The notes below the pieces were generated by a model. It worked only from the letters and a program-made list of their open reading frames with translations, made no database searches and was not told the origin of the DNA. A stretch of 49,955 nucleotides of DNA from Candidatus Woesearchaeota archaeon (lineage in GTDB: Archaea; Nanobdellota; Nanobdellia; Woesearchaeales; CALCXY01), in the NCBI GenBank assembly GCA_937906345.1, contig CALCXY010000034.1, positions 1 through 49,955 of the forward strand, read 5' to 3'. Below are positions 1,347 to 42,386 of this stretch, one piece after another (the first letter of the stretch is position 1; every line of letters begins with the position of its first letter). The translations under genes were made by a program, and so were the position numbers.

Positions 1347-1366
1347 AATTAAAATAATCAATAACC

Positions 1367-1374: not shown

Positions 1375-1396
1375 CCCAATTCATAATTTGGAGAGA

Positions 1397-7120: not shown

Positions 7121-10100
7121 TTATTCCACCAATATTTCTCTATGCACAACTCTCCTTACCTTATCATTACTAATCACAAATCTTGCATCATATAATCCAG
7201 GCTCTAGTGTCGGTAATTCAAGGAATAATTTCCTAGATTGTGTTCCTCTCTTTGATAAATCAAAATGCCTACTCTTAGCAACTGCTCCAAATTCAGTTAA
7301 GGTTGCTGTCATTTGCAAATTTCTTAAATTAGTCTCTCCATCATTCCTTACTGTTATTTGAGCAAAATATAAGCTAGATCCTCTAACACTTCCTGCCCCT
7401 CTCAATGAAATATGCTCTACTTTTAATCCTGGTTGAGGCTTTGAAAGACATTGTCCATTTAAACATCCAAATCTACATGATTGTACAAAATTTGGCGTAT
7501 CACTAGCTACACAACTACTTGTTGGAGTTCCTGCACTCAAACATACAAAGCTTCTAAAGTTTTGCACAATATCATTACCACTGCAAGTAAACTTCCCTAT
7601 AATATTATCAGCACCACAATCAGTATTCACTAAACATAAAATATTTTGGAATCCGCAGAAACTTGCACCTGTTCCAGGATTAGTACATGTATCCTGAGTA
7701 AATGGATTATTATCATCACAATCATTATCATTAAAACATGCAACATCAGTACATGCATCGTTTTCACATACTTGAGTATTATTACAATCTTGGAATAATG
7801 TAGGAATATCTTGAATCTGACATGTTGCACTTCCTGTTCCAGCATTTAAACAAGTGTGATCCCTAAACGTATCAGACACATTACCATTAATATCACAAAA
7901 TGGATTTCCTAAAAATCCATCTATTCCACAATCAGTTTCTAGATTACAAGCAACATTTGCACAAGCCGCATTCTCACAAACTTGATTATTAGCACAATCA
8001 GTTACTAATTGAGTAGAATCTACAAAACTACAACTACTATTTGCTTGACCTGCTAAATTACAAGTATGATCTCTAAACGTATCAGACACATTACCATCAC
8101 CATCACAAAAAGTATTACCTAGTAAACCATCAACACCACAATCACTCTCTTGGCTACATGCTACATTGAAACAAGCACCGTTTTCACACGTTTCACTTGC
8201 TGTACAATCATCTATAACTTGGAATACTCCTCCTACTTGACATTCAGATGCATTTGTTCCTGGATTAACACAGGTATGATCAATAAACGTGTCAGCTGCA
8301 TCATCATTACCATCACAAAAAGGACTTCCTAAAAAACCATCTACTCCACAATCACTCTCTTGACTACATGCTATAGCAGTATTCAAACAAGTAGCATTAG
8401 CAGCACCTGGATTAATACAATCATCTTGAGTATTCACATTCCCATCATCACAATCACCATTAACAAAACAAGCAACAGTATGACAAGCGCCATTCTCACA
8501 AGCTTCACTAGCAGTACAATCAGTTGCTAACTGCACATTATCATTAAAATTACAAAAACTCGTACCAGTCCCAGCATTATTACACAAATGAGACCTAAAA
8601 GTATCAGACACATCCCCACTACCATCACAAAAAGTATTACCTAGTAAACCATCAACACCACAATCACCATTAACAAAACAAGTAATAGCAGTATTCACAC
8701 AAGTAGCATTAGCAGTACCAGGACCAACACAAACATCCTCAGTATTCACATTCCCATCATCACAATCACCATTAACAAAACACGCAACAGTCTGACAAGC
8801 ACCATTCTCACAAGCTTCACTAGCAGTACAATCATCAAATAACAAAACAGTATCTACTGCACTACAAGAACTAGTATTAGTTCCTGCATTATTACATGTA
8901 TGATCTCTTAACGTATCAGACACATCTCCACTACCATCACAAAAAGTATTACCTAAAAAACCATCTATTCCACAATCACTCTCTTGATTACATACTATAG
9001 CAGTATTCAAACAAAAACTTGCTCCTGTTCCAGGACTTATGCAATCATCTTGAGTATTCACATTCCCATCATCACAATCACCATTAACAAAACACGCAAC
9101 ACTCACACATGCCCCATTTTCACATGTTTCAGTTGCAGTACAATCATCAATTACCATAGGAGTTGTAGTTGCAGTACAAGCTGCGTTTCCAGTCCCACCA
9201 TTATTACATGTATGATCTATGAAAGTGTCAGCTGCATCATTATTACCATCACAAAAAGGCTGTCCTAAAAAACCATCAACACCACAATCTCCTTCAACAA
9301 AACACGCAATAGGATTATTTTGACATACTGAATTAACAGTTCCAGCATTTAAGCACAAATCTTCAGTATTTGCATCATTATCATCACAATCACCATTAAC
9401 AAAACAATTAAAATAAAAAACATTTACACTTGAAGATGCACTAGCACCTTTAGGATCAGTTAAAACAAAATCAACAAGAGTTTGCCCTAAAAAATTAAGA
9501 GTAGGAGTTATTGTTAATACATGAGTTAAAGCATCAACACTTGTGATGATTCCATTTGAAGGATTAGCAGTCCATGTTAAACTTGATTGAGGATCATCTA
9601 TATCATCCCCATATAAATCCAAATCAAAAATGATTTGTTTATTCTTCACTTGTTCTTGATCTGGAATAGGTAAAATAAAAGGTGCATTATTTGTTGTTGA
9701 CATTTGTCTAGCAATATCTAAATCAGTAGTTAAAATAACAAAAGAATCTTGAATAGTGTTAAATCCATTAAGAGCAATAGTATAAGTGTATGTTCCTGTA
9801 ACAAATCCTGATAAGACTAATTGTCCAAGCGCATCTGTAACTCCATTAAAACCATTATTAACAGTTATAGCAGCTCCTGGTAACACTGTTCCTGTTCCTT
9901 CTTCACTTATACTCCAAGTAACTGAAGATGTTGGTTGCTTATCTACAAAAACGGTTTTACTAATACTATCTTTAATATTATCTAACGCAGTAGCAGGACA
10001 ATTAAGTGCTTCACCTTCTAAAGAAACTAAAAACTGCCCATCATTTGGAAATGTAACATCAAAATTTACTTTTTTCGCTTTATCATCAGGATTAGAAGCA

Positions 10101-11056
10101 AATTGTATAGTAGTATCTAAAATATTTGTACCTGATTTTGTAACTTTTAAATCAACCTCAGTTCCTAAAGGCGTATTAACCCCTCCATTATTCATATAAT
10201 TACTAATTTTTTCTACATCAAAGGTAACTAATTCTCCTTCAACAGGAAAACTATCTCTTGGAAGTAAATCATTTAAGATTGTATAACATTTATTTAAGGG
10301 CCTTGCTGGTTGCACTTGTATTACTTTAGTAGAAGCTTGATTTACTTTTGAAGAACATTGACAATCTGTAACATCAGTTGTCGCTTCAACTGTAAATTGA
10401 CCAGTTGATGCAGGTGTAAAAGTAAAGGTTCTCTTATCAGTAGAATCCATCCTTAAGTTAAGATTTTTAGTTTTTGAAAAAACAACTGTATTGGATGCAT
10501 CTTTTACAGTAATTTTAAGCTTTGTTTCAGCTGAATAATGATCATCAAATCCATTTGGAGTAAAAAAAGGAGGTTGTTGATTTTCTCTAAAAGCACTTTG
10601 AGTTGTAGTAGAGATATCAGCATCAATACCTATTACTATAGGTTCATTTACAAATCCTGAATTAACCACTTTAATAGATACAGGACTTCTACAATTCTTT
10701 GCCTGGTTAAAGAAATTGTTATAAGTTATAGCACCATCTCCTTGAGAAAATACTCTAAATTCTTTAGGAATAAAACAATTAGCATAAAAATATTCTCCAT
10801 AATAAACAATATTATTGGTGCTTGGAAAAGGAATAACTAATTTATTAGATCCTCCTGAATTTTGATCAAATATTTTATTTCCTACATTAACACAATTAGT
10901 ATCTTGACACTTGTAAACTACACCTTGGACTTGTGTAACAGGATTATTATTAGATTTCTCAAAGAAAAAATTCTTTTCATCAAAGGTTGCAGAAGCTACC
11001 ACTATCTGCATCAAAAGGATTAATGTTAGTACCCCCAAAACTCTCTTTACACCCAT
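7121..11056 (-). CDS. giant secreted Cys-rich repeat surface protein
   Basis: The 1311-residue protein has a signal peptide (VLGVLTLILLMQIVVASA). About 530 residues of beta-type domains follow, including a carboxypeptidase-regulatory-like segment (GAAITVNNGFNGVTDALGQL, near 395) and a cadherin/Ig-like segment near 455-545. Residues of about 550-1205 are Cys-rich modules: five short (about 34 residues, DCDDGN..T.D.C) and seven long (about 70 residues, DCG.DG.LG..FCDG). A beta domain of about 105 residues ends the protein. No C-terminal TM helix is visible, so it is released or held by other proteins. Many modules contain N-X-S/T sequons. The Asp-rich DCDDGNVNT loops suggest calcium binding. 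Its job is unknown; adhesion or envelope structure is plausible. Confidence 0.75.
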   Translation of the reverse strand: MGVKRVLGVLTLILLMQIVVASATFDEKNFFFEKSNNNPVTQVQGVVYKCQDTNCVNVGNKIFDQNSGGSNKLVIPFPSTNNIVYYGEYFYANCFIPKEFRVFSQGDGAITYNNFFNQAKNCRSPVSIKVVNSGFVNEPIVIGIDADISTTTQSAFRENQQPPFFTPNGFDDHYSAETKLKITVKDASNTVVFSKTKNLNLRMDSTDKRTFTFTPASTGQFTVEATTDVTDCQCSSKVNQASTKVIQVQPARPLNKCYTILNDLLPRDSFPVEGELVTFDVEKISNYMNNGGVNTPLGTEVDLKVTKSGTNILDTTIQFASNPDDKAKKVNFDVTFPNDGQFLVSLEGEALNCPATALDNIKDSISKTVFVDKQPTSSVTWSISEEGTGTVLPGAAITVNNGFNGVTDALGQLVLSGFVTGTYTYTIALNGFNTIQDSFVILTTDLDIARQMSTTNNAPFILPIPDQEQVKNKQIIFDLDLYGDDIDDPQSSLTWTANPSNGIITSVDALTHVLTITPTLNFLGQTLVDFVLTDPKGASASSSVNVFYFNCFVNGDCDDNDANTEDLCLNAGTVNSVCQNNPIACFVEGDCGVDGFLGQPFCDGNNDAADTFIDHTCNNGGTGNAACTATTTPMVIDDCTATETCENGACVSVACFVNGDCDDGNVNTQDDCISPGTGASFCLNTAIVCNQESDCGIDGFLGNTFCDGSGDVSDTLRDHTCNNAGTNTSSCSAVDTVLLFDDCTASEACENGACQTVACFVNGDCDDGNVNTEDVCVGPGTANATCVNTAITCFVNGDCGVDGLLGNTFCDGSGDVSDTFRSHLCNNAGTGTSFCNFNDNVQLATDCTASEACENGACHTVACFVNGDCDDGNVNTQDDCINPGAANATCLNTAIACSQESDCGVDGFLGSPFCDGNDDAADTFIDHTCVNPGTNASECQVGGVFQVIDDCTASETCENGACFNVACSQESDCGVDGLLGNTFCDGDGNVSDTFRDHTCNLAGQANSSCSFVDSTQLVTDCANNQVCENAACANVACNLETDCGIDGFLGNPFCDINGNVSDTFRDHTCLNAGTGSATCQIQDIPTLFQDCNNTQVCENDACTDVACFNDNDCDDNNPFTQDTCTNPGTGASFCGFQNILCLVNTDCGADNIIGKFTCSGNDIVQNFRSFVCLSAGTPTSSCVASDTPNFVQSCRFGCLNGQCLSKPQPGLKVEHISLRGAGSVRGSSLYFAQITVRNDGETNLRNLQMTATLTEFGAVAKSRHFDLSKRGTQSRKLFLELPTLEPGLYDARFVISNDKVRRVVHREILVE
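7442..9408 (-). repeat. array of twelve Cys-rich module repeats inside the giant surface gene
   Basis: In protein order the modules run A B A B A B A B B B A B, with A about 34 and B about 70 residues. Several copies are nearly identical in DNA. For example, the stretch covering ATTCACATTCCCATCATCAC recurs near 8430, 8740 and 9055 with the same flanks. Such identity points to recent duplication or gene conversion. Outer copies have diverged more than the middle ones. Confidence 0.85.
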
Positions 11057-15857: not shown

Positions 15858-18800
15858 ATGAAAGAAGATAAAACAGAGGATGAAGATTTAGAATTAGATT
15901 TCTCATGGATGAAAAAAATCTTTAAAGGCAAGAAGGATCAAGTAAAACAAGTTGAATCCCAAGCCGAACAATTAGAAAAAGATATTAAACATCGTGAATC
16001 TGATTCTCCTCAAGACCCTACTAAACTCAAAGAAGAAGAAAATAAAGTAAAAGAAATTGAAAAAGATACTAAAGTTCTTGAAAAATCTGCTACTCAAATA
16101 GATAAATCATCTACTCAATTTGATAAAAAATTAGAAGAGCAAGAAGCTAAGCTAGAACAAGTTGAAGAAGAAGTAGATGAAGAGATTGATTGGGGAAAAG
16201 TTTCATCTGGCATTAAAGGATTCTGGAAAAAAGGTAAAACCGCATTTTCCCAAGAAGATGATAATGACATTAACGTTGATTGGAAACGCGCATCTGCTAT
16301 ACTAAAAAAATATCATGTGTTATTATTAATTTTAATTCCTTTATTAGTGAGTATATATTTTAGATCATTACCAGCAACATTACCTATAACTGATAATTGG
16401 GCTATTAGTTCTGTTGATTCTAATATATTAAATCAAATTCGCAACCAAGTCAATCAAAATTATCCTAATCTTCCAGATCAAAATAAAGATGTTTTAGTGA
16501 ATGAAGAATTGATTAAATTTAGAATAGAAAACAAAGACGCCTATGAGGCCCAAATCAAATCCACATCAGAATTTTTCAAATCACGCTTACAAAATGATAA
16601 TGGACAAACATATCTTATTGCTATTGATCCTTGGTTCTGGTACAGGCATGCTCGCAACATCGTAGAGAATGGCCATCCAGGAGATAAACTTGTTGATGGA
16701 AAACAAATTGATGATCATATGCTTGCCCCTAGAGGAAGAGAAGTTCCTCCGGATAAATTCCATGCTTATCTTGAAGCGTATAGCTATAATTTCCTCAAAA
16801 TATTCAATAAAGATCTTGACTTATTGACTGTAGCTTTTTTCTTACCTATGATTATAGCATCATTAGCTATTATTCCTGCGTTTTTCATTGCTAAAAAAAT
16901 TGGAGGTAACTTTGGAGGGATTATCGCATCTTTAATTGTTGCATTGCATCCAAGTGTCATGTCCAGAACAACAGCAGGATTCTCAGATACAGATGCTTAC
17001 AATATTTTCTTTCCTTTATTTATCACATGGTTTTTCTTACTTGCACTTGATGCTAAAGATAATAAAAAAATGATTGCCTATTCCATTGCAGCAGCTTTCT
17101 CAACAGGATTGTATGCCTATGCTTGGTCAGGATGGTGGCATATCTTTCATTTCCTTTTAATCTCATCTATTTTGATTATATTATATTTGATAGTAATTCA
17201 TAGAAGCTCCATTAAAAATAATCTTAAAGGATTCATAACTTCAGATACGTTCAAAAAACCATTAATTATTCTTTTATTATTCTTGATAGGTACCATAATA
17301 TTTGTTTCACTTTTTACATTTTATGGTGTTGTCAAATCAGGGTTCATATCTCCTTTTGGATTCTCACAAATCAAAGAAGTAGGAATCTCTAGTGCATATC
17401 CAAATGTTTTTACAACTGTTGCTGAGCAAAATGAAGTTAATTTACCTGGAATTATTTCCCAGTTTGGAGGTAAATTACTATTCTATCTTGCTTTAATAGG
17501 AATTACCTTAACTCTTTGGTCTACCAAAAATAAAAAATTACACGAAATAACATATCTCATTGTTTCAGCTCTGTATTATTTAGTGGTTGTTAACTATTTT
17601 GCCGTTGATCCTACAACGTTCATGGTTTTAATTATCATTCCTATTGCTATCAAGATTTTTTGGGCAATGTATAAAAAAGACGAATCCATTGATATCAAAT
17701 ATTCTACAATTCTTATTATTTGGCTTATCGCAACAATATTCGCAGCAACAAAAGGTATTCGTTGGGTATTATTAGGTGCAGCACCTTTGGGTATAGCTAT
17801 TGGTATTACTTTAGGATTAACATTAAAAAACGGCACTCGCTACCTAAACAAAGAATTTAAAATAAATAAAATTATCTCTATGGTTGTATTAATCATCATA
17901 TTATTATTAGTTATTGGTATAGCGCCTTTCCCTCCATTTTGTAAATTTGGAATTTGTGCATCAGGAAAAAATACTGCATTTCATGAAGTTCCTTCTATGA
18001 ATGATGCATGGTATAATACTCTTGATAAAATTAATAGAGAAGCAACACACGATGCAATTATAAACTCTTGGTGGGATTTTGGACATTGGTTTAAAGCTAT
18101 TGGTGATAGAGCTGTCACATTTGATGGAACAACACAAAACACACCTATGGCTCATTTTGTAGGTAACGCTTTACTTAATGACGATGAACAACAAGCCATA
18201 GGAACATTACGTATGCTTGATTGTGGCTCATCTTCTGCAGTTGAGAGACTTGAAACGTATCTAGGAAGAACCTATAAAGCCATTGAATTATTAAGAAGTG
18301 TATATTCCTTAGATAGAGCTGCTGCCCTTAAAGTATATCAAAACACTATACTAACACCTGAACAAATAGATGAAGTTATTGAATTAACTCATTGTGATCC
18401 ACCTGAAAATTATTTTATTACTTCACAAGACATGGTAGGAAAATCAGGAGTATGGGCCCATTTTGGAATTTGGGATTTTAGAAAAGCAACAATGTATAAT
18501 CAAGTGTATGGTGCTGAAAAAAATCCATCAATTGAATTATTAACATCTGAATTCAATATGACAAAGGAAGACGCATCTTCGTTATACTTTGAAATTCAAA
18601 CCATTGATCCTAATAGAGATTCAAATACTTGGATTGCACCATGGCCAAGCTACTCATCTGGAGTAGATGGCTGTCAAAAAGAAGGAAATCAATTAACTTG
18701 TGTAAATAATTTTAAGATTGATCTAGATACTCATCACGCAGAGGTCTTAACAGCTGAAGGAATTAGGCACCCAAGAAGATTAACTATAATTACAAAAGAA

Positions 18801-19160
18801 GGTTTAATTCAAAAAGACTATACTGAAAATTTTATATCTCTAAGTAATGGTAGACCATTAGGATTAGCTATTATTCCAACAGACACTGAAGGAACAAATT
18901 ATGCTACCCTCTTCCAGGATTTCAACTTAGCTGGAAGTATGTTTACACGACTTTTCTATATGGATGGACACGGTCTAGAGTGCTTTGAAAAATTTGATCA
19001 ACAAACAAGCACATTTGGAACAAAAATAATTACTTGGAAAGTCAATTGGGATTGTAATACTAATAGAAAAGTATATCTCCAAGTTCCAGAACTAGCACCA
19101 GTATCAACACCTTTAAACGATACCGTTGAAGAAGAACCTGCTAATGAATCTGCAGCTTAA
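15858..19160 (+). CDS. aglB: oligosaccharyltransferase STT3/AglB
   Basis: This 1100-residue protein is the catalytic enzyme of archaeal N-glycosylation. It moves a lipid-linked glycan to Asn in N-X-S/T sequons on the outer face of the membrane. Hallmarks seen are the first acidic loop (IDPWFWYRHARN, near 255), the second DxD-type loop (GFSDTDAYN, near 377), about 12 TM helices from residue 150 to 690, and the WWDFG signature at 738-742 (usually WWDYG). A soluble C-terminal domain of about 400 residues follows. Unusual is the charged, coiled-coil N-terminal extension of about 140 residues before TM1. A CTTTTTAAC element lies about 39 nt before the ATG. Confidence 0.95.
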   Translation: MKEDKTEDEDLELDFSWMKKIFKGKKDQVKQVESQAEQLEKDIKHRESDSPQDPTKLKEEENKVKEIEKDTKVLEKSATQIDKSSTQFDKKLEEQEAKLEQVEEEVDEEIDWGKVSSGIKGFWKKGKTAFSQEDDNDINVDWKRASAILKKYHVLLLILIPLLVSIYFRSLPATLPITDNWAISSVDSNILNQIRNQVNQNYPNLPDQNKDVLVNEELIKFRIENKDAYEAQIKSTSEFFKSRLQNDNGQTYLIAIDPWFWYRHARNIVENGHPGDKLVDGKQIDDHMLAPRGREVPPDKFHAYLEAYSYNFLKIFNKDLDLLTVAFFLPMIIASLAIIPAFFIAKKIGGNFGGIIASLIVALHPSVMSRTTAGFSDTDAYNIFFPLFITWFFLLALDAKDNKKMIAYSIAAAFSTGLYAYAWSGWWHIFHFLLISSILIILYLIVIHRSSIKNNLKGFITSDTFKKPLIILLLFLIGTIIFVSLFTFYGVVKSGFISPFGFSQIKEVGISSAYPNVFTTVAEQNEVNLPGIISQFGGKLLFYLALIGITLTLWSTKNKKLHEITYLIVSALYYLVVVNYFAVDPTTFMVLIIIPIAIKIFWAMYKKDESIDIKYSTILIIWLIATIFAATKGIRWVLLGAAPLGIAIGITLGLTLKNGTRYLNKEFKINKIISMVVLIIILLLVIGIAPFPPFCKFGICASGKNTAFHEVPSMNDAWYNTLDKINREATHDAIINSWWDFGHWFKAIGDRAVTFDGTTQNTPMAHFVGNALLNDDEQQAIGTLRMLDCGSSSAVERLETYLGRTYKAIELLRSVYSLDRAAALKVYQNTILTPEQIDEVIELTHCDPPENYFITSQDMVGKSGVWAHFGIWDFRKATMYNQVYGAEKNPSIELLTSEFNMTKEDASSLYFEIQTIDPNRDSNTWIAPWPSYSSGVDGCQKEGNQLTCVNNFKIDLDTHHAEVLTAEGIRHPRRLTIITKEGLIQKDYTENFISLSNGRPLGLAIIPTDTEGTNYATLFQDFNLAGSMFTRLFYMDGHGLECFEKFDQQTSTFGTKIITWKVNWDCNTNRKVYLQVPELAPVSTPLNDTVEEEPANESAA

Positions 19161-19213: not shown

Positions 19214-19867
19214 ATGAAAACATTCGCTATTATTCCGGCATATAATGAAGAGAAAAACATTAGAGAAGTAATTAAAAAAGTCAAAAAATATGTTAAACAT
19301 ATTGTAGTGGTTGATGATGGTAGCAAAGATAATACGTATGAAACTGCTAAAAAAGAAAAAATACCTGTTTTAAGACATGTTATCAACCTTGGCAAAGGAG
19401 GAGCATTAAAAACAGGCTGCGAATTCGCTATTAAAAATCTCGCAACCAACTTAATCTTAATTGATTCTGATATGCAACATGATCCTAATGAAATTCCTCG
19501 ATTTTTAAAAGAATTAAAAAATGTAGATATTGTATTTGGATATAGAAAGATAGATAAAACCATGCCTGCTATATTACGTTTTGGTAATTGGTTCATAAAT
19601 GCTTCCGCAAAACTTTTATATGGATTAAATCTCTATGATACTACATGCGGCTATAGAGCATTAACCACATCCACATATAAAAAAATCCGATGGGAAACCA
19701 CTGGATATTTTGTAGAAGGTGAAATGATTGCTAATGTAGGTAGAGAACATTTAAGTTTTGCCCAAATTCCCATTCAAACCATTTATTCAGATAAGTACAA
19801 AGGAACAAATGTGCTCGATGGCATGCAAATTGTTTTAAACATGATTTTATGGAGGCTACGTAAATGA
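19214..19867 (+). CDS. GT2 glycosyltransferase, dolichol-phosphate sugar synthase-like
   Basis: The 217-residue GT-A protein opens with IIPAYNEEKNI. It has VVVDDGSKDNT (nucleotide-binding Asp pair) near 35, LGKGGALKTG near 62, and the metal-binding IDSDMQHDP near 87. The length and lack of C-terminal TM helices match DPM1-type enzymes, which transfer a sugar from a nucleotide donor to polyprenyl phosphate on the cytoplasmic face. The stop codon overlaps the next start as ATGA, so translation is coupled to the small DUF2304 protein. Confidence 0.88.
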   Translation: MKTFAIIPAYNEEKNIREVIKKVKKYVKHIVVVDDGSKDNTYETAKKEKIPVLRHVINLGKGGALKTGCEFAIKNLATNLILIDSDMQHDPNEIPRFLKELKNVDIVFGYRKIDKTMPAILRFGNWFINASAKLLYGLNLYDTTCGYRALTTSTYKKIRWETTGYFVEGEMIANVGREHLSFAQIPIQTIYSDKYKGTNVLDGMQIVLNMILWRLRK

Positions 19868-20208
19868 TTATAGGAATACAAATTATAGGAATTTTATTTT
19901 CACTCTTTATGATATATTATACTTTCATTCATTATAAGAAAAACGAATTTACAGTAAAGGAATCTGTATTTTGGTTTGTGATTTGGACTCTTTTCTTATT
20001 TCTTACATTAGTCCCTCAAATTCTTGACCCTGTTATTAGTACTTTAAGAATTGCAAGAACTTTAGATTTATTTGTTATCCTAGGATTTATGTTTTTAATT
20101 GGGTGTGTAATCTATACGTATGGTCTTGTAAGAATAAATCAAAAACGTTTAGATGGAATTGTAAGAAAAGTTGCTTTTGATATCGAAAAAAAAGAGCAAA
20201 AGAAATGA
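19864..20208 (+). CDS. DUF2304 small membrane protein
   Basis: The 114 residues include three hydrophobic helices (about 3-20, 33-52 and 67-90) and a basic Lys-rich C-terminus. The pattern and position, directly after a DPM-like GT2, match DUF2304 proteins, which are widely found beside such transferases and probably help anchor or assist them. It overlaps both neighbours by ATGA, so the three genes form one tightly coupled operon. The biochemical role is not established. Confidence 0.78.
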   Translation: MIIGIQIIGILFSLFMIYYTFIHYKKNEFTVKESVFWFVIWTLFLFLTLVPQILDPVISTLRIARTLDLFVILGFMFLIGCVIYTYGLVRINQKRLDGIVRKVAFDIEKKEQKK

Positions 20209-24092: not shown

Positions 24093-25103
24093 ATGAAGAT
24101 AGCAATCTTAACACCAACATTCTCTAAATTCTCTGGAATAGATAGATTAATTGAAAATAAACTCCCTGATTATAAAAAAAATGGAGATGAAGTAACCATA
24201 TTCTGCTTTGATGCAGATATTGAAACTAACTTAGCTAATATTGAAAAAATAGGCATGCCAAAATCTCCTTTCTGGCAAAGAATCTATAGACTCTTCTTTT
24301 TCTTTCATAGAAAAAAAATTAAACAAACAGTAGAAAAATTAAAACCCTTCAAACATATCATAGCTCATCAATATCCAATGACTATTATCGCATCTAAAGC
24401 AAGAAAAAAATATAAAACAAAATACACATACCATGATGCAGGAATAGCCTATCCAAGATTATTCTCAAAATTCTCTGAACGTTTATACCTTAGACTATTC
24501 TCATTTTTCACTAAACGCTCTATAAAAAATGCAGATGAATTTATTTTTATATCCAATTTTCTAAGACAAGAGATGAAAAAAACATATGGAAAACCTACTT
24601 CTATTGAATATGTTAAAATTGATACTAAACGTTTTCATAAAGATGTGAAAGGAACCGATGTTAAAAAACAACTCAACCTTGAATTCCCTACGTTGCTGTA
24701 TGTTGGTAGAATTTCCCCTCATAAAAATGTGCACACATTAATTGAAGCCTTTAATTTAGTCTTAAATCATTTTCCCAATGCTAAACTACTTATTATTGGT
24801 AAACCCACTTTTAAAAAATATATTAAAAAACTTAAAAAAATAGCAGATGATAATGTTATTTTCCCAGGATTTGTTGCTGATGAAGCATTACCCGAATATT
24901 ATGCAGCATCTGATCTTTATGTTACCGCATCTCTCTGGGAAGGTTTTGATATTCCCTGTGTTGAAGCTCAAGCCATAGGAAAAGAAGTTGTATGCTTTGA
25001 TATAGGATCACATCAAGAAGTTGTTAAAGAAGGAATTTTAGTAAAAGAATTAAATCATACTGCGTTAGCAAGTGCTATCTTAAAGGTTTTGAAAAAAGAA
25101 TAA
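24093..25103 (+). CDS. GT4 family glycosyltransferase
   Basis: The 336-residue GT-B enzyme has the donor-site signature EGFDIPCVEAQAIGKEV near 289 and the hinge LLYVGRISPHKNVHTLIEAF near 197. The N-terminal glycine-rich loop is short (FSKFSGIDRLI). It is first in a four-gene operon with a methyltransferase, a GT-C-like membrane protein and a small membrane protein. It is expected to extend a lipid-linked glycan on the cytoplasmic side. Confidence 0.88.
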   Translation: MKIAILTPTFSKFSGIDRLIENKLPDYKKNGDEVTIFCFDADIETNLANIEKIGMPKSPFWQRIYRLFFFFHRKKIKQTVEKLKPFKHIIAHQYPMTIIASKARKKYKTKYTYHDAGIAYPRLFSKFSERLYLRLFSFFTKRSIKNADEFIFISNFLRQEMKKTYGKPTSIEYVKIDTKRFHKDVKGTDVKKQLNLEFPTLLYVGRISPHKNVHTLIEAFNLVLNHFPNAKLLIIGKPTFKKYIKKLKKIADDNVIFPGFVADEALPEYYAASDLYVTASLWEGFDIPCVEAQAIGKEVVCFDIGSHQEVVKEGILVKELNHTALASAILKVLKKE

Positions 25104-25118
25104 AACAACATCAAAAAA

Positions 25119-25643
25119 ATGAAAGCAATCTTTAGAAAATTTTCACATATTTTGTTTAGAACACGCCCTTTTGTTAATAAACACCTCAAAAAGTTTGCTA
25201 AAAATTGCAATAATAAAAAAATTTTAGAACTTGGATCTGGAAAAAGTGAGAAAGGTAAACATTCCTATAGCTCAAAAAAATTCTTCAACCTTACAAATGA
25301 TTTTTTGCAAACAGATATGAATCCTGATTTTGGGCATAAGGTTCTAGACGCAACAAAAATGAATTATAAAAATGAGTTTGATGTTATTCTTTGTCTAAAT
25401 GTCCTCGAGCATGTGTATGAATTTCAAAAAGCAATAGATAACATCCACGCAGCGTTAAAACCACAAGGAACCCTTCTTTTTTTTGTTCCAGGATATTATC
25501 CTTTACACGATGAACCTCATGATTATTGGCGTTTTACTGAACATTCTTTAAAGAAAATCTTCCAAAACTTTTCAAACATCAAAATATCCCATTCAGGAGT
25601 AAGACAATACCCTTTTGGTTATTTTATTGAGGCTAATAAATGA
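25119..25643 (+). CDS. SAM-dependent methyltransferase, class I
   Basis: The 174-residue protein has motif I ILELGSGKSEKGKHS near 37, the acidic FDVILCLNVLEHVYE near 88, and a substrate segment HDEPHDYWRFTEHSLKKIF typical of Methyltransf_11 proteins in polysaccharide clusters. Its small size indicates a minimal catalytic domain. It probably methylates a sugar or glycolipid in this pathway. The stop overlaps the next start (ATGA), which couples it to the GT-C gene. Confidence 0.82.
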   Translation: MKAIFRKFSHILFRTRPFVNKHLKKFAKNCNNKKILELGSGKSEKGKHSYSSKKFFNLTNDFLQTDMNPDFGHKVLDATKMNYKNEFDVILCLNVLEHVYEFQKAIDNIHAALKPQGTLLFFVPGYYPLHDEPHDYWRFTEHSLKKIFQNFSNIKISHSGVRQYPFGYFIEANK

Positions 25644-27289
25644 ACTTCCCAAAAATTAAATTTGAACATATCTTCTTAATTATCTTCCTTGCACTTATGC
25701 TCACAACAGGAATTGCAAACTTATGGAATAAACAAATAACACATGATCGTCCCTACTCATACCTTGCAGGAGATACCTTCCAACATTGGGTAAGAACAGA
25801 GGGTATTAAAGATGCAGGTAATTATCGTAATAGAGCAAGTTTTCAAACGTATGGTTATGATGATGTTATTGGAGATTATCCTCCTTTATTGTTCCACCTC
25901 TCAATTATTTTCAGCAACGTCTCGGGTTTACCAACCTATGACGCAATTCTTTTCCTCATCTTCCTAACAGCAATCTTAGCAACATTAATCATCTATTTCA
26001 TTTTAAAAGATTTTAATAAACATATTGCTATAATTTCATTACCATTCTCTTTACTTATTTTCTCAGGCGCTTCCTATACTGGATTTACTTGGGGACATTG
26101 GCCATCTTTATTAGCACAATTTTATTTAATAGCTGTTCTTTGGAGCATTAAAAATATTGATCTCAAAAAATCATATCTTTTAATTGCAGCTTTCTTCACA
26201 GCAACAATTTTAGCGCATACAAGTGAAGCTATAATGGGATTTTTCTTTATTATTTTTTACCTTGCAATTATGTTTTGGCACAAAAACAAGCCTAAAGAAA
26301 AATTCTTTACATTTTTGAAAGCGGGTATACTCTCATTCATTCTCTCACTTTGGTATTTAATTATCTTTAAAGGAACTTGGACTCATAATCAAGGGTATGA
26401 ATTTTCAATAATCACCTCAACAGGGGGCTCTCCAAGCGTGCAATTTGCAGATTATGGAATCTTTGCATTTATTATCATCATAGGATTTATTCTTTCACTC
26501 TTACTCTTAAAACAAAAGAAAAACCAGCTACCTATTATCTCTTCTATCTTCTTTTTAATTATGGGTTACACAAATTATATTGGTTTTCATAGTAGAGCTT
26601 TTCAAATCAGATATTTTTGGCCAATCTACCTTTGTTTTTTCATTGGTTTAATATTTTACACTATTCCAAAAAAATTCTTGAAATGGAATATTATGTATTC
26701 TTACATAATAGCATTTGTCCTATTAGCACTTTTTGCAAATCTAGGGAATGTATCTGCATCTATTCCAAATGTTCCTTTTTATGAAAAATTATCTTCTCCT
26801 GGAATGATGGATCCTTATCATTGGGAAGCGTATTCTTGGATGCACGAAAACTCTCCTAAAGATGCTAAAGTCCTTTTCCTATATGGTGATCAATTTTCTC
26901 AAACAAACTATCTTCTTTCAGTTAAAAGAGTCCCTTACAAAGTAGATCCACAAGATTTTTTCACTACCCTTCAAAACCCTCAACCTGAGAGAGAATTTAT
27001 TATCAATATCTATGGAGATAACGTTAACAGCTACCCTTATTGGAAATCATTTTTATCTTTTGGCTATTATTTAGACGAAACTACTGAATTTGAACACGGC
27101 CTTAAACATGATATTTGTAACTTTGATTATTATATTTATGATAAAGCCTCATTCATAAACCAAGAATTTCCTATTTTTAACAATGCTATAACAACAATTT
27201 TCAAAAATCATGGAATGAAAGAATTATTTGCTAATCAATTAGTTGGAATTATTTTCAACCCTAAACCAGGTGAAGACTGTGTTGGATAG
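25640..27289 (+). CDS. GT-C-like multi-TM protein, large member of a paired module
   Basis: The 549-residue protein has about 11 TM helices. After TM1 an extracytoplasmic loop holds AGDTFQHW, then DYPPLLFHL and WGHWPSLLAQF, and a soluble domain of about 170 residues ends it. The Asp in the first loop and the overall layout resemble GT-C transferases using lipid-phosphate sugars. The same three motifs appear as GDSAWHF, EYPPPSHL and WGQRPSLLSF in the convergent gene at 27909-29507, so the two are paralogues. Donor and acceptor are unknown. A small membrane protein gene overlaps its end. Confidence 0.7.
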   Translation: MNFPKIKFEHIFLIIFLALMLTTGIANLWNKQITHDRPYSYLAGDTFQHWVRTEGIKDAGNYRNRASFQTYGYDDVIGDYPPLLFHLSIIFSNVSGLPTYDAILFLIFLTAILATLIIYFILKDFNKHIAIISLPFSLLIFSGASYTGFTWGHWPSLLAQFYLIAVLWSIKNIDLKKSYLLIAAFFTATILAHTSEAIMGFFFIIFYLAIMFWHKNKPKEKFFTFLKAGILSFILSLWYLIIFKGTWTHNQGYEFSIITSTGGSPSVQFADYGIFAFIIIIGFILSLLLLKQKKNQLPIISSIFFLIMGYTNYIGFHSRAFQIRYFWPIYLCFFIGLIFYTIPKKFLKWNIMYSYIIAFVLLALFANLGNVSASIPNVPFYEKLSSPGMMDPYHWEAYSWMHENSPKDAKVLFLYGDQFSQTNYLLSVKRVPYKVDPQDFFTTLQNPQPEREFIINIYGDNVNSYPYWKSFLSFGYYLDETTEFEHGLKHDICNFDYYIYDKASFINQEFPIFNNAITTIFKNHGMKELFANQLVGIIFNPKPGEDCVG

Positions 27290-27641
27290 ACTAAAGCAAG
27301 AATTAACACAATTAGGCATCATCTTAGTAGGTTCTATTATTTTATTTAAACTTATTTTCTTAAATGAACCATTAGGAAGCATAATTAGGATTATCTTATC
27401 AATTTTTTACATATTTATAATTCCAGGATATCTTATGTTATATTATTGGAATGCTAAAATTGAATTTATTGAAAGAACTGTTTTAGGAATTGCTCTAAGT
27501 GGAGCAATACTAGGAGTTGTAAGTTATTATATTGCACTTATAGGATTAAATGTAAATTTTCACTTTATTCTTCCTTTACTGTTAATCCTAGCTGGGTTCT
27601 ATATCGCTTTAATAAAAACCCCACACCCACAACCAAAATAA
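27279..27641 (+). CDS. small membrane protein paired with GT-C-like protein (DUF1616-like)
   Basis: About 120 residues form four hydrophobic helices. The start is taken as GTG at 27279 because GGTGA ends 5 nt before it. A frame start at 27243 would overlap the upstream gene heavily with no ribosome site. It overlaps the upstream stop by 11 nt. The segment IFIIPGYLMLYYWN and the following ERTVLGIALSGAIL resemble the N-terminal half of DUF1616 proteins. The last 77 nt overlap the convergent small-membrane-protein gene, so their tails are encoded on opposite strands of the same DNA. Confidence 0.62.
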   Translation: MLDRLKQELTQLGIILVGSIILFKLIFLNEPLGSIIRIILSIFYIFIIPGYLMLYYWNAKIEFIERTVLGIALSGAILGVVSYYIALIGLNVNFHFILPLLLILAGFYIALIKTPHPQPK

Positions 27642-27912
27642 AAGTAACAAATAAGGACAACTTTAAACTTGGTAAAATTCTATCAACAAACCAAACAGCT
27701 AAAGTAAACAAGCTCAACCCTAAAAATAAAGAAAAGAATATTTTCTCATCTGTCTCAAGATTAAAATTATTAAGAATCATATACGTAGGAATAACATAAA
27801 TCAAAACCATAGCTAACACACTTCTCACTCCTTCAAATTGAAATAAATACAATACATAGATGAGTATAATAATGCTGCATACCCCTCCTAAAATCTTATT
27901 ATTTAGTTTCAT
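27565..27912 (-). CDS. small membrane protein, counterpart of the convergent one
   Basis: The 115 residues form four hydrophobic helices with IYVIPTYMILNNFNLETDEKIFFSL-type spacing comparable to the convergent partner (IPGYLMLYYWN, then E-R start of the next helix). It begins by ATGA overlap with the preceding GT-C-like gene. The short polar tail (KRYRTQLGLTVKEE) is where the two convergent genes overlap. The role is unknown; a stabilising or flipping partner of the large protein is a guess. Confidence 0.62.
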   Translation of the reverse strand: MKLNNKILGGVCSIIILIYVLYLFQFEGVRSVLAMVLIYVIPTYMILNNFNLETDEKIFFSLFLGLSLFTLAVWFVDRILPSLKLSLFVTFILVVGVGFLLKRYRTQLGLTVKEE

Positions 27913-29507
27913 GCTATCTCCTCTAAGGGTTGGATAACTTCATAGAGCCTAATATCATCTTTATTGTATAAAGGCACCTGATTTTCAAAATTTTTGATCT
28001 CAAAATTCTGCAAGTCTTTTAACTTTTGTGCATACTGCGCATTTTGCGTTAAATATCTTAAATCAGAATAATCTGCAATAAAATATTGCTTACCAGTTAA
28101 ATAGGTATCATTTCTCATTTTACCATACCATTGTGCAATATGCCTATTTGAAACACTTAACTGCCATCTTACTTTTGGATATGTAATAGTGCCCCTATTG
28201 TAAATAAAAGCATCTTGAGGAATATCACTTAGCCTTAACCATTCAGCGAATTCATATTGTTGCTGAGTCATTCTTCCTAAACTTGAATAAGCTCCCTCTA
28301 ATGTTTGTAATGCTTCTGGACTTTTTGTTTGAAAAATAAATACAAGCAATACAACAAAAACCATAATCTTCGCAATTTTTTTAACTTGAGTTTTTGTAGG
28401 TAATAAACTTACTAAAGACATAACTCCTATACTAATTAATGCAAAAAACACTGGAGGCTCTGTAACCATCATTCTAATGAGCCTAGGACTTGTTGTCCCT
28501 AAAAACACATCAAAATGTAAAGCTAAGTAAATCCCTCCCAACCAAGATAAAATAAGTAAATCCTTATTTTTTCTTCTCATTAATAAAAGTAAAACACCTA
28601 AAGCTACTAATACTAATAATATCCAATGATAATGCCCTGATAACTCAACATAACTCTCAGGATAACTTCCTTGATAAGTTCCTTTTTGAACATTCCACAT
28701 TAATAATCTTGATAGAGGAACTGTTCGTTCTCCAGATGCTTCTCCTAATTCCAATCCATAATAAATTGGTGCGAAAGGAGCAATTATTATTAAAAGAAGT
28801 AATCCAGAGATAAGTACATGTTTTAGATTATCTTTTCCAATAGGTATTTTTTTGTATTTTATGGACATTGTTATGACATACACTAAACTACAAAGAAAAC
28901 TAATAACTGATCCTTGAATATGCAATAAAAACTGCGCAGCAACTAGCAATAGAAAAATATAAAGATAAACCACTCTCTGGTTTTTTGTATAATATCCATC
29001 AAGATACTTATAGAGTGCATAAAGTATGATAGGAACAAAAATAAAGCTTAACAAACTAGGCCTTTGTCCCCAAAGATAAAGCATTATTTCTCTCATAGAA
29101 TAAATTAAGGGAAACGCTGCTAAAAAACCAATCATAGGACTGTATAATTTTCTAATGAAAAAATAAGTAACTAATACACCTAAAAACCCTGTTATAGCCA
29201 TGTAAAGAAACGGACTCAATATTCGTTCTCCTCCTGCTATTTGCATAAGCGCATAATTCAAATGACTTGGTGGAGGATACTCAGGATATAAAGGTCCTAA
29301 ACTGCTTAAATTATAATACCATAATCCAATAAAATAAGGCATTTTAGTAGTTGAACGATCTAAATTAAATTGAGGATCACCATTTGCAAAATGCCATGCA
29401 CTATCTCCTTCTCCAAATGGCAGCCAACTTTCTTGTAAAGGCAAGGTCCATGTAAAAAAAGCTACTAAAAACAAAATTGTTAAGAATAAAATATCTTTAT
29501 AGTTCAT
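27909..29507 (-). CDS. GT-C-like multi-TM protein, second large member
   Basis: The 532-residue protein has about 11 TM helices and then a soluble domain of about 140 residues. The first loop carries GEGDSAWHF (near 37), then YPEYPPPSHLNYALM and LWGQRPSLLSF, the same motifs as the convergent 549-residue protein. It is third in a coupled operon: GT2, DegT aminotransferase, this gene, small membrane protein. The context suggests transfer of a polyprenyl-phosphate-linked amino or deoxy sugar on the outer membrane face. The start is by ATGA overlap with the aminotransferase stop. Confidence 0.72.
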   Translation of the reverse strand: MNYKDILFLTILFLVAFFTWTLPLQESWLPFGEGDSAWHFANGDPQFNLDRSTTKMPYFIGLWYYNLSSLGPLYPEYPPPSHLNYALMQIAGGERILSPFLYMAITGFLGVLVTYFFIRKLYSPMIGFLAAFPLIYSMREIMLYLWGQRPSLLSFIFVPIILYALYKYLDGYYTKNQRVVYLYIFLLLVAAQFLLHIQGSVISFLCSLVYVITMSIKYKKIPIGKDNLKHVLISGLLLLIIIAPFAPIYYGLELGEASGERTVPLSRLLMWNVQKGTYQGSYPESYVELSGHYHWILLVLVALGVLLLLMRRKNKDLLILSWLGGIYLALHFDVFLGTTSPRLIRMMVTEPPVFFALISIGVMSLVSLLPTKTQVKKIAKIMVFVVLLVFIFQTKSPEALQTLEGAYSSLGRMTQQQYEFAEWLRLSDIPQDAFIYNRGTITYPKVRWQLSVSNRHIAQWYGKMRNDTYLTGKQYFIADYSDLRYLTQNAQYAQKLKDLQNFEIKNFENQVPLYNKDDIRLYEVIQPLEEIA

Positions 29508-30601
29508 TGTAGTGATTTTAACACATTACAAATATGTAAAACCTCTTCTTTTGTTAAATGAGCACTTGAAGGCAAGCTAATCCCTTGTAAGGATAGTGCT
29601 TTAGAAACTGGATATTCTTTAGTTTCTTTATACATTGGCATTAAATGCATAGGAATAAAAAATGGCCTTGTCCCTATTCCCTTTTCTGATAATTTGTTAA
29701 TAAGCTCATCCCTACTCATACCAAAATTTTTATCTATAAGAATACAATACATCCAATATACATTTTTACAATGGTCTTGTTCTGGAGGTAAAATAACTCC
29801 TTTCACATTGCCTAGTTGCTCATTATACCATTGTGCTATCTGCCTTTTATTAGTAATAGTTTTTTCAATATTTTCCAATTGTGCTAAACCTATTGCTGCT
29901 TGCACATTTGTTAATCTTAAATTAAATCCAATCTCTGGATGATAATATCTTTTATCAGGATCCATAGCATGATCTTTAAGAAAACGCATTCTTTCAGCAA
30001 GTTTAGGATCATCTGTTACAATCATTCCTCCTTCTCCTGTTGTAATAGTTTTATTACCATAAAAACTAAAACAACCTACATGACCTATACTCCCAACTTT
30101 AGCGCCTTTATATGTTGCACCATGTGCCTCTGCTGCATCTTCTATGACTTTAAGATTATATTTCTCAGCCAATTCCATAATAGGATCCATATCACAAGGA
30201 TGCCCATACAAATGAACCGGCATAATTGCCTTAGTTTTCTTTGTGATCTTTTTTTCAATTTGAGTAACATCCATACACCATGTTTCTTTATCAGCATCAA
30301 CAAATACAGGTTTAGCACCTACATACGTAACAGCATTTGGACTAGCAACAAAAGTCAAATCAGGAACAATAACCTCATCACCCTCTCCAATATTTAGTCC
30401 TTTTAATGCAATATGTAACGCTGCAGTCCCATTACAAACACTAACTCCTAATTTAGAACCACAAAACTCTGCAAAACCTGTTTCAAATAAACTAATGTAT
30501 TTTCCTAAAGAACTTATCCATGTGCTTTTAACAGCCTCTGTAACATACTTTAATTCGTTTCCTTCCAATGTTGGTTCATAAATAGGTATAAAATCTTTCA
30601 T
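29504..30601 (-). CDS. DegT/DnrJ/EryC1 PLP aminotransferase, perosamine synthase-like
   Basis: The protein has about 365 residues. The PLP Lys lies in FSFYGNKTITTGEGG, cofactor residues in IEDAAEAHGATYKG, and the phosphate site in VCNGTAALHIAL. The N-terminal PIYEPTLEGNELKYVTEAVKSTWISS is typical of sugar aminotransferases acting on 4-keto-6-deoxyhexoses. With Gmd in the window, GDP-perosamine synthesis is a reasonable prediction. The start is the ATG at 30601 sharing one base with the upstream stop (TAATG). An in-frame start 36 nt upstream would lie inside the GT2 gene. Confidence 0.9.
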   Translation of the reverse strand: MKDFIPIYEPTLEGNELKYVTEAVKSTWISSLGKYISLFETGFAEFCGSKLGVSVCNGTAALHIALKGLNIGEGDEVIVPDLTFVASPNAVTYVGAKPVFVDADKETWCMDVTQIEKKITKKTKAIMPVHLYGHPCDMDPIMELAEKYNLKVIEDAAEAHGATYKGAKVGSIGHVGCFSFYGNKTITTGEGGMIVTDDPKLAERMRFLKDHAMDPDKRYYHPEIGFNLRLTNVQAAIGLAQLENIEKTITNKRQIAQWYNEQLGNVKGVILPPEQDHCKNVYWMYCILIDKNFGMSRDELINKLSEKGIGTRPFFIPMHLMPMYKETKEYPVSKALSLQGISLPSSAHLTKEEVLHICNVLKSLQ

Positions 30602-31365
30602 TATCCAAAAAACCTCAATTGTAATGCACGTTTCCAATAAAGATAAGCATAATAAATATAACTTTGAGATTTAGAATGTCCTTCTTCTCTGTATTTGTAA
30701 ACAAAAGGAATTTCTTTAATAGTATATCCTCTTCGTATAGCTCGATAAAATAATTCCATATCAAATTCTCCCCATCGTGCTTTGTATTTGAAAGGCAATG
30801 CTAAAAATTTATCTCTTTTCATAGCGTGAAAGCCACCTGTAAAATCTGTTACCTTAAATCCAAGAATAATTCGCAAGAAAAGATTCAAACTAAAAGTAGC
30901 TAATCGTTTAAACCAAGGCATCTCAACTCCTCCTCCTGGTGCAAACCTTGAACAATTCACAATATCTGCTTCATTCATATAAGATAATAATTCAATAATC
31001 TTTGCTGGAGGATGTGAAAAATCCGCATCCATAATAACAACCACATTACTCCTTGCAGCTTTAATTCCATCTTGCAATGCAGAAAATATTCCTTTTTCTT
31101 GATATCTGTGTAAAGCAACAACATAATCTTTATCATAACTATCTATAATCTCTGGAGTTTTATCCTTGCTATTATCATCAACAATAATAACCTCGAATTG
31201 ATATCTTCCATTTAAAGTTTCAATTATAGAATCAATCATTCGTTTAATACCTTCTTCCTCATTATAGGTAGGAAGAATAACAGATACTTCTTTTGTTTGC
31301 TTAAAATCAAGAATAGTATCAAATTCCTGAGTCTTTTTCCCAGATTTATATTTATAAGCTTTCAT
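30601..31365 (-). CDS. GT2 glycosyltransferase, dolichol-phosphate mannose synthase-like
   Basis: The 254-residue protein has VSVILPTYNEEEGI near 28, VDDNSKDKT near 61 and metal-binding MDADFSHPP near 112. CSRFAPGGGVEMPWFKR and DFTGGFHAMKRD follow, in the order found in DPM1-type enzymes. An extra N-terminal stretch of 25 polar residues is present. It should load a sugar onto polyprenyl phosphate to feed the GT-C-like protein encoded two genes later. It heads a four-gene coupled operon. Confidence 0.9.
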   Translation of the reverse strand: MKAYKYKSGKKTQEFDTILDFKQTKEVSVILPTYNEEEGIKRMIDSIIETLNGRYQFEVIIVDDNSKDKTPEIIDSYDKDYVVALHRYQEKGIFSALQDGIKAARSNVVVIMDADFSHPPAKIIELLSYMNEADIVNCSRFAPGGGVEMPWFKRLATFSLNLFLRIILGFKVTDFTGGFHAMKRDKFLALPFKYKARWGEFDMELFYRAIRRGYTIKEIPFVYKYREEGHSKSQSYIYYAYLYWKRALQLRFFG

Positions 31366-40522: not shown

Positions 40523-41383
40523 ATGTATCAAACAAATTTATTTAGAAAAAATGTAAGAAAGCAGGCCCAAAACTTTTCAAATACTGATACAGTTGAAACT
40601 GCTTTATTTGATTTTGTAAATGGTTTAAAAATTCCTGATTTTGGTGAGAAATACATTGAAAGACATGTTAAAGAATCCCACACATTATCTAAAAAACAAA
40701 GAGATAAATATACTCTTCGCTTTGATGTGCCTGCACATGGTTTTTTTAGATTAAAAGATAATGGCTATGCTAAAAGAAGCAGAGACTTTTTCTCCTTAGG
40801 AGAATCACGATATTTTGAAAACCCCTTCAATTTTTCTTTATTCTATGGTTGGAGCTGCATTGCATCTTTAGGATTTGAACCTGGCTTTGATAATATTATG
40901 ATTAGAGAACTTAAAGGAACCACTGTCAGAGTAAATCCCTTACAAAAAATTAAATGGACTCATGCATTAGTAAGTTTTGCAGTTGATTGGGCAAAAGCAT
41001 TAAACATTCCAGAAGTAAGAATATTATCTGCAAGTAATAATTATTTAGCTCAAAGAACATATCAAAATCTACAAGAATTAGGATATCTTCCAAGAGATAT
41101 GACTTTTCAAGAATCTTTACGCCATGAAATTGATCAAGAAACAAAAAATCAAATAGCAAAACATAGTGAGTGGGAAGTAAAACCTTTACCCAACGATACA
41201 TTTATGCTCTATGATGTTACTGCAAGAAGGCTTAAATTTAATACCTTGCGCAATGGAAACTATTCACTAATACTTACTCCAAAACCTGTTTCAAAGCCTC
41301 AGCAACCTTCTGAATCTCCTCATCAGTCAAATCAGAGCTACTTGGCAGATAAAACCCTTTCTCACCAAGCCATTCAGCAATAG
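40523..41383 (+). CDS. unknown protein, possibly GNAT-like
   Basis: The 286-residue protein has no signal peptide or TM helix. I do not recognise the family. A stretch near 150-195 (HALVSFAVDWAKALNIPEVR, then a helix ending in NLQELGYLP) has the order of the acetyl-CoA-binding and C-terminal parts of a GNAT acetyltransferase, but the pyrophosphate-binding Q/RxxGxG/A loop is not clear. The last 37 residues (Pro, Ser, Gln-rich) are encoded antisense to the end of the DegT gene, a 110-nt convergent overlap. It is likely expressed, because it has a well-placed TATA box. Confidence 0.55.
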   Translation: MYQTNLFRKNVRKQAQNFSNTDTVETALFDFVNGLKIPDFGEKYIERHVKESHTLSKKQRDKYTLRFDVPAHGFFRLKDNGYAKRSRDFFSLGESRYFENPFNFSLFYGWSCIASLGFEPGFDNIMIRELKGTTVRVNPLQKIKWTHALVSFAVDWAKALNIPEVRILSASNNYLAQRTYQNLQELGYLPRDMTFQESLRHEIDQETKNQIAKHSEWEVKPLPNDTFMLYDVTARRLKFNTLRNGNYSLILTPKPVSKPQQPSESPHQSNQSYLADKTLSHQAIQQ

Positions 41384-42386
41384 AATATTCTCCACTACAA
41401 TCTGGAGCATTTTCAACAGTTTTATCAACATAAACTGGCTGCTTATGCATAGGAATAAAAAAACTCCTAGTATCAACTCCCTTTTCCTTCAATTCAGACA
41501 TAACCTCTTCCTTACTCTTACTCACCGAATCATCCAAAACAACACCATACATCCAATACACATTTTTATAACCCTTTAATTCAACAGGTAAAATAAGTGG
41601 CAATCCTTTAAGTGCTTTCCCATACCTTTCTCCAAGACTTCTACGAGCTGAAACAAGTTTTTCAGCATTTTCAACTTGTGCAACTCCTATTGCTGCTTGA
41701 ATATTAGTAAGCCTATAATTAAAACCAACTTTCTTATGGATAAAACGAGGAACCTCAAAAGCATGATTGCGTAATTTCTTCATTTCATCAGCCAACTCAG
41801 AATCATTCGTTACACACATGCCTCCTTCACCTGTTGTAAAAATCTTATTAGCATAAAAACTAAAACATCCAATATCTCCTATACTTCCTGCTTTTTTACC
41901 ATTTAATTCAGCACCATGTGCTTCTGCTGCATCTTCAATAACTTTCAATCCTTTATCTTTAGCAATCTCCATAATTGTATCCATATCACACATATGTCCA
42001 TACACATGCACAACCATAATTGCTTTAGTATTCTTAGTAATTTTCTCAATTATCTTCCCAGCATCCATACACCATGTTTCTTTATCTGCATCAACAAAAA
42101 CAGGTGTTGCGCCTGTAAAGATAATCGCATTAATTGTTGCAGCCATAGTAAAAGTAGGAACTATTACCTCATCTCCTTTTTTTAATCCAAGAGCTGCAGT
42201 TGCTAAATGTAAAGCACCTAATCCACTAGAACAACTTACTCCAAATTTTGATCCACAAAACTCTGCAAATCCTGATTCAAATTGATCTATAAACTTTCCT
42301 GCACTAGAAATCCAATTAGTATCTAAAGCCTCATCCACATATTTTTTCTCATTTCCTGGAAGCCAAGGCTTACATACTGGAATCAT
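41274..42386 (-). CDS. DegT/DnrJ/EryC1 PLP aminotransferase, second paralogue
   Basis: The 370-residue protein has the PLP Lys in FSFYANKIFTTGEGG, VIEDAAEAHGAELNGKKAG, and CSSGLGALHLATAAL for phosphate binding. It closely parallels the aminotransferase at 29504-30601 (shared FIDQFESGFAEFCGSK-type, PVFVDADKETWCMD and RSFFIPMH-type segments), so they are paralogues with probably similar 4-keto-6-deoxy sugar substrates. It is last in a six-gene operon and begins by ATGA overlap with the cupin gene, so the cupin is probably its pathway partner. Confidence 0.9.
   Translation of the reverse strand: MIPVCKPWLPGNEKKYVDEALDTNWISSAGKFIDQFESGFAEFCGSKFGVSCSSGLGALHLATAALGLKKGDEVIVPTFTMAATINAIIFTGATPVFVDADKETWCMDAGKIIEKITKNTKAIMVVHVYGHMCDMDTIMEIAKDKGLKVIEDAAEAHGAELNGKKAGSIGDIGCFSFYANKIFTTGEGGMCVTNDSELADEMKKLRNHAFEVPRFIHKKVGFNYRLTNIQAAIGVAQVENAEKLVSARRSLGERYGKALKGLPLILPVELKGYKNVYWMYGVVLDDSVSKSKEEVMSELKEKGVDTRSFFIPMHKQPVYVDKTVENAPDCSGEYSIAEWLGEKGFYLPSSSDLTDEEIQKVAEALKQVLE

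Follow-up and report, generated by a model that had tools for sequence, protein, structure and literature searches.

A recurrent pair of a GT-C-type membrane protein and a small membrane protein in Woesearchaeota is a split variant of the DUF6541 family

Introduction

The 49,955-nt stretch analysed here (the window) is a 50-kb contig of a woesearchaeal genome assembly (G000; 1.64 Mb, 77% complete). It carries two convergent gene pairs, Large1-Small1 on the forward strand and Small2-Large2 on the reverse strand, each combining a large GT-C-type membrane protein with a small membrane protein. Why should such a pair occur twice, in mirror image, and what kind of machine would it encode? A reading made from the sequence alone had proposed an unrecognised two-subunit membrane glycosyltransferase with two versions for two sugars. 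We find that the module represents the uncharacterised DUF6541 GT-C family in a split and paired form. Gene adjacency, co-divergence and natural fusions argue well for a two-subunit GT-C enzyme, whereas the idea of two sugars is not supported. On balance, each Large-Small pair is probably a two-subunit, polyprenyl-phosphate-sugar-dependent GT-C_A enzyme of surface-glycan assembly.

Results

Layout of the two convergent pairs

The module consists of the following features.

25640-27289, + strand: Large1, GT-C-type membrane protein of 549 aa with AGDTFQH, YPPLLFH and WGHWPSLL motifs and a weak DUF6541 match
27279-27641, + strand: Small1, four-helix membrane protein of ~120 aa, with an inferred start
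27565-27641, both strands: tail-to-tail overlap of the Small1 and Small2 genes, 77 nt
27565-27912, - strand: Small2, small membrane protein of 115 aa homologous to Small1
27909-29507, - strand: Large2, GT-C-type membrane protein of 532 aa, above the DUF6541 cut-off and with an STT3-like GT-C fold in its AlphaFold2 model

The start given for Small1 by the open reading frame (ORF) tool, TTG at 27243, is probably too early; GTG at 27279 or TTG at 27282 is the better candidate because a GGTGA sequence lies at 27269-27273. The facing arrangement and the 77-nt overlap are as the sequence-only reading had described them. Of the three motifs that it had assigned to both large proteins, GDxxxH and WGxxPSLL are indeed common to the two, and YPPxxH is present in Large2 (YPPPSH), but the Large1 version is one residue longer (YPPLLFH).

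The two pairs are homologous and recur together

Profile-profile comparison aligned Large1 with Large2 over 476 columns (hhalign 99.6%, 18% identity) and Small1 with Small2 over 112 columns (96%). Since both large and both small proteins are homologous, the mirror image reflects a duplicated pair and not a chance resemblance.

It had been set down beforehand that the proposal would fall if the small proteins were not found beside the large ones in other genomes or if profile comparison showed no similarity; the profile values are those above, and within the Large1 and Large2 groups the small genes are nearly always in place, so that neither condition arose. The pairing count covered large ORFs of more than 250 aa with E below 1e-20 (123 ORFs, three of them at contig ends and set aside; G062 entered twice, as L106 and L232). 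A match to a small-protein hidden Markov model (HMM) lies directly after the large ORF in 114 of the 120 cases with room for one. These comprise 59 Large1-Small1 pairs, 50 Large2-Small2 pairs and five pairs of Large1-like and Small2-like proteins, and the longest small frame begins ahead of the large stop codon in 110 of the 114. Among the six unpaired rows, four (representing three genes) have an unmatched ORF of 127-137 aa with four transmembrane helices, one is a frameshift fragment, and one has no such ORF. The small proteins also diverge with their own partners: across 42 genomes, partial correlations with the own versus the other large protein were 0.51 versus 0.32 and 0.48 versus 0.11, with bootstrap 95% intervals of the differences excluding 0, figures that ignore shared ancestry and to which joint transfer of adjoining genes could contribute.

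The convergent four-gene module is present again in many families of the order. All 28 named Large2 loci belong to assemblies of Woesearchaeota, Nanoarchaeota or Candidatus Nanoarchaeia, and in 24 of them the four genes are complete and convergent; L122 is truncated at a contig end, and L129 and L130 are without Large1 within the stretch available. The related-loci search was run with an 11-row alignment subset. Named-locus and genome counts are not independent, because several share contigs (L112, for example, is G036). At E 1e-5, 31 of 145 relative genomes have Large2 and 37 have Large1, the weakest Large1 matches being other paralogues. In a 371-genome sample of the phylum, Large2 occurs in 42 genomes and Large1 orthologues in 44, an orthologue being defined by E below 1e-120, with the split Large1 of G005 counted once and Large1-like paralogues of weaker score (E above 1e-120) left out. 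Both are present in 40 genomes, one or the other singly in 2 and 4, and neither in 325, so that 40 of the 46 genomes with either have both (Fisher p 1e-46, a value that ignores shared ancestry and joint transfer).

In 38 of these 40 genomes the modules converge on one contig; in G264 they are divergent and ~16.6 kb apart, and in G267 they lie on two contigs. Both small genes were found in 44 of 75 stretches examined, in every case convergent. The phylum figure gives the less biased picture, because many of the stretches were picked for closely spaced large genes. The gene tails overlap by 4-150 nt in 16 of the 44, are separated by 0-46 nt in 10, and are wider apart in 18, at up to 10.7 kb; tail overlap was thus rejected as a conserved rule. 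Among plasmid records, none encodes a relative of the L219 large protein at E 1e-3.

Each pair corresponds to a split DUF6541 protein

Large2 matches Pfam DUF6541 (PF20176, function unknown) at 41.8 bits, over the cut-off of 29, and Large1 reaches 18.7 bits, below it. Small1 aligns to the first ~66 positions of the same model, and the large proteins begin near position 80-90. Given that Large2 passes the cut-off and that the small protein matches the DUF6541 N-terminus, the pair is a split DUF6541. One-chain relatives exist, with an N-terminal segment followed by a GT-C core (order small-large); here, in contrast, there are two genes, the N-terminal part being encoded on its own, downstream, with an additional helix. 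Among 28 Small1 proteins, 10 match the N-terminal part of DUF1616 (PF07760, function unknown; best E 1.5e-6) and 7 match DUF6541 (best E 1.2e-4), the window's own Small1 scoring below the cut-off for both. A literature search found nothing on DUF6541, and in the literature text retrieved DUF1616 appears as a table entry.

Single ORFs of ~620-700 aa found by search of the phylum sample cover DUF6541 from positions 2-3 or ~30 to ~390-495 (G351, G044, G098, G163, G227, G010, G131 and G022), and separate small ORFs matching positions 1-89 alone occur in G292, G244 and G341. The Small1 and Small2 HMMs gave weak scores on five fused proteins, and the comparison was therefore made between profiles, with control segments. 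The N-termini of seven fused sequences matched the Small1 profiles at 80% (A3) and 89% (A7) and Small2 at 55%; six control comparisons with two other segments of the fused proteins gave 0.7-20%, and the C-terminal parts matched both large proteins at 99%. The L262 fusion stayed outside this comparison because the loop pattern missed it. In the G138 fusion, the Small1 HMM matched residues 19-94 at 19.2 bits (the E-value being for one sequence). What the fusions retain is equivalent to helices 2-4 of the small protein, and no small membrane ORF lies just 3' of the fusions (0 of 8). G000 itself carries a relative in which small and GT-C parts are fused and the loop reads DDDPWSHA (L274, 2278-4077, - strand, contig C17). 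The fusions are the strongest sign that small and large proteins belong to one machine. The fused relative on C17 adjoins a PMT_2-type GT-C.

The large protein has a predicted GT-C_A fold

The claim that the large proteins are GT-C-like is borne out by the AlphaFold2 model of Large2 (pLDDT 88.4, pTM 0.89) and by the profile homology of the two. Foldseek placed STT3/oligosaccharyltransferase (E 5.9e-9), AglB (1.4e-8) and ArnT (3.4e-6) at the top of the PDB matches, and a VIA comparison with STT3 (8agc_A) aligned 443 residues (Z 23.1, root-mean-square deviation 4.8). Pmt4 (Z 20.7), AglB (20.3), PglB (18.9) and ArnT (18.6) followed, every one of the best PDB matches being a GT-C enzyme. The GT-C_A fold is thus seen by structure comparison for Large2 and indicated by profile homology for Large1. 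Sequence searches returned little: phmmer of Large2 against solved structures gave nothing useful and one chance match, profile A1 gave 0 matches and profile A2 one chance match against the same structures, and no NCBIfam model matches the large proteins.

Invariant residues in Large2 are D35, Y77, P79, H196, R345 and D479. An Asp in the loop after the first membrane helix is a GT-C_A trait and is found here, as the invariant D35 of Large2 (following the helix at residues 3-26 in the model) and as D45 of Large1, conserved in at least 90%. In the Large2 model, D35 and YPPxxH share the loop between the first helix and the helix at 97-121. Taking the Large2 N-terminus as inside, helix order would place D35, Y77, P79, G147, Q148, H196, H331, R345 and D479, residues conserved in alignments A1 or A6, on the outer side, D479 belonging to the C-terminal domain. 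In fused and distant relatives the loop reads DPWxHA or ADPFYH, which resembles the DPWFWYR loop of AglB.

The small protein is favoured as a partner over a flippase

The small protein had been described as a four-helix protein, and the AlphaFold2 model of Small1 (pLDDT 92.5) has helices at residues 2-26, 32-57, 63-87 and 92-112. P49, G50, E65, Y83, G89 and P99 are conserved. NCBIfam gave one chance match to Small1, below the cut-off.

The strongest competitor to a large-small complex is a three-component system in which the small protein would be a flippase for the polyprenyl-phosphate sugar, as a counterpart of GtrA or SMR proteins, with the GT2 making the donor and the GT-C using it; a complex would then be unnecessary. 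Gtr-type systems (GtrB, the GtrA flippase and a GT-C) do join a GT2 donor synthase, a small membrane protein and a GT-C in a layout that includes a small flippase (PMC11127046), and the size of the small protein, its four helices and the gene order GT2 - GT-C - small in several loci fit such a system. We nevertheless consider it rather unlikely, since the pairs differ from Gtr-type systems in several respects. At E 0.1 the families listed for 57 small proteins include no GtrA, SMR or EamA model, the Foldseek matches of the Small1 model hold no SMR structure (by itself not decisive), the fusions retain only the last three helices, and every large protein has its own co-diverging small one. In addition, an EamA/SMR-looking ORF adjoins a different GT-C in G033. 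A partner role is favoured over a flippase role, although the small protein may yet be a flippase of another fold. The G033 locus (L246, contig C30) has this four-transmembrane ORF just 3' of a DUF6541-type GT-C (1219-3054) and may show what a GT-C and flippase pair looks like in these archaea.

The flanking genes vary

The genes around the module, and the oligosaccharyltransferase of the same contig, are as follows.

24093-25103, + strand: GT4 glycosyltransferase gene upstream of Large1; a flanking gene that the conserved module does not include
25119-25643, + strand: methyltransferase upstream of Large1; flank, without conservation
29504-30637, - strand: DegT/LegC-like aminotransferase upstream of Large2; flank
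30601-31365, - strand: GT2 glycosyltransferase whose best NCBIfam match, below cut-off, is dolichyl-phosphate hexose transferase; flank
15858-19160, + strand: AglB/STT3 oligosaccharyltransferase with a WWDFG motif; context

This gene content, GT4 and methyltransferase on one side and GT2 and DegT on the other, had been reported correctly. In the wider comparison, 11 of 51 Large2 genes have a same-strand DegT gene no more than 4 kb upstream; of 52 Large1 genes, 6 have an upstream GT4 gene, 1 an upstream methyltransferase gene, and 13 a GT2b-type gene upstream within 4 kb on the same strand. Flanking genes were rejected as a guide to sugar identity, as they are not conserved. Seven GT2 proteins picked beside Large1 all had AglJ as best match, below the cut-off, and one also matched the solved DPM synthase 5mlz; by sequence, an AglJ-type GT2 beside Large1 is a plausible donor maker.

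That the two pairs are sugar-specific versions, each set by its own operon, is quite improbable. The large proteins have diverged to 18% identity and stand in separate convergent operons, as this would predict, but the flanks vary and the two versions are found together in 40 of 46 genomes, which suggests one pathway. Least credible of all is that the large proteins are divergent STT3-like protein oligosaccharyltransferases moving whole glycans with the small protein as accessory subunit: STT3 is the top structural match and hhalign against an AglB family alignment gave 95.5% (6 of 7 sequences used, one-against-one E-value), but the WWD motif is absent from 28 of 28 Large2 and 28 of 28 Large1 proteins (AglB of the same genome has WWDFG), making sequon-type N-glycan transfer unlikely, the window's large proteins have no match to Pfam STT3 (PF02516) at E 1, and a normal STT3 is present in 29 of 31 of the same genomes.

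The contig also bears an AglJ/DPM-like GT2, DUF2304 and many sugar genes. AglB has a charged extension of ~150 residues N-terminal to its first membrane helix, and next to aglB an AglJ/PpgS-like GT2 gene stands immediately before the gene of a DUF2304 small membrane protein (19214-20208, + strand); this GT2-DUF2304 pair stands beside AglB again in L074 and L086. DegT-family aminotransferases occur twice, at 41274-42386 and 29504-30637 (both - strand; phmmer E 1e-127 to each other). A secreted-looking protein of 1311 aa (7121-11056, - strand) has many tandem Cys-rich repeats of the CFVNGDCDDGN type and is a possible surface protein. At the contig end, 47691-49871 (+ strand) encodes another large multi-helix GT-C-like protein, with a PF13231 match.

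Discussion

A proposed two-subunit enzyme and the points that weigh against it

In the two-subunit enzyme that we favour, the large chain would be the catalytic subunit, with D35 as base by analogy with other GT-C enzymes. A sugar carried on polyprenyl phosphate and made inside by a DPM/AglJ-like GT2 would be transferred outside to a lipid-linked or protein-bound glycan. The small four-helix protein would be an obligate, paralogue-specific membrane partner, a detached form of the N-terminal domain of single-chain DUF6541 relatives, probably stabilising the large chain or shaping donor-lipid entry. Duplication of the pair would have given two pairs, both retained since both serve one surface-glycan pathway.

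Several observations count against this proposal, besides the shared ancestry and joint transfer that the co-occurrence and co-divergence statistics leave aside. The Small1 model found no matching PDB structure with Foldseek, so the role given to the small protein is a guess. L135 is without Large1, and its Large2 is without a detected Small2. Nor does pairing hold generally in ten DUF6541-type loci that are still more distant: a Small-like ORF is present in one, a second is a fusion, a third has a four-transmembrane EamA/SMR-looking ORF, five show none, and two could not be judged. Finally, STT3 is not enriched with Large2 (29 of 31 versus 94 of 114 genomes, p 0.16), so what links the pairs to N-glycosylation is their neighbourhood only.

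Comparison with known systems

STT3, AglB and PglB share with Large2 the GT-C_A fold, including a C-terminal outer domain, and the Asp after the first helix; unlike them, the large proteins lack WWD, are roughly half as long as the window's AglB and have a small partner of their own. In EmbA-EmbB-AcpM2 and in Pmt1-Pmt2, two paralogous GT-C chains act together, AcpM being a soluble protein, and structures of both are among the VIA fold matches of the Large2 model. By comparison with EmbA-EmbB or Pmt1-Pmt2, Large1-Small1 and Large2-Small2 might form one obligate hetero-tetramer, whose two non-identical active sites would work one after the other on a single glycan, lipid-linked or protein-bound, with the conserved convergent four-gene block as the inherited unit. 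We think this unlikely; unlike in those systems, contact between Large1 and Large2 is hypothetical.

A parallel to the two-subunit enzyme proposed here, drawn by architecture, is glycosylphosphatidylinositol (GPI)-mannosyltransferase I (PIG-M/Gpi14 with PIG-X/Pbn1), described as a catalytic GT-C chain with an essential non-catalytic partner, an arrangement termed unusual for a glycosyltransferase (PMC9306709). Two-subunit GT-C enzymes are thus already known from this example. GPI-mannosyltransferase I differs in being eukaryotic and, in the same account, in having a partner with a single C-terminal transmembrane domain (PMC9306709).

Implications

Seen side by side, the split and fused forms suggest an identity for DUF6541 and DUF1616, that of a GT-C core to which a detachable membrane partner belongs, and they point to residues and a partner that are open to experiment. 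Our literature search found nothing on GT-C glycosyltransferases of Woesearchaeota, and the pairs described here are a concrete candidate for a part in the assembly of surface glycans by archaea of this type, a process as yet unstudied. If the two-subunit reading is true, an architecture termed unusual in the account of GPI-mannosyltransferase I (PMC9306709) would be common in a large archaeal group.

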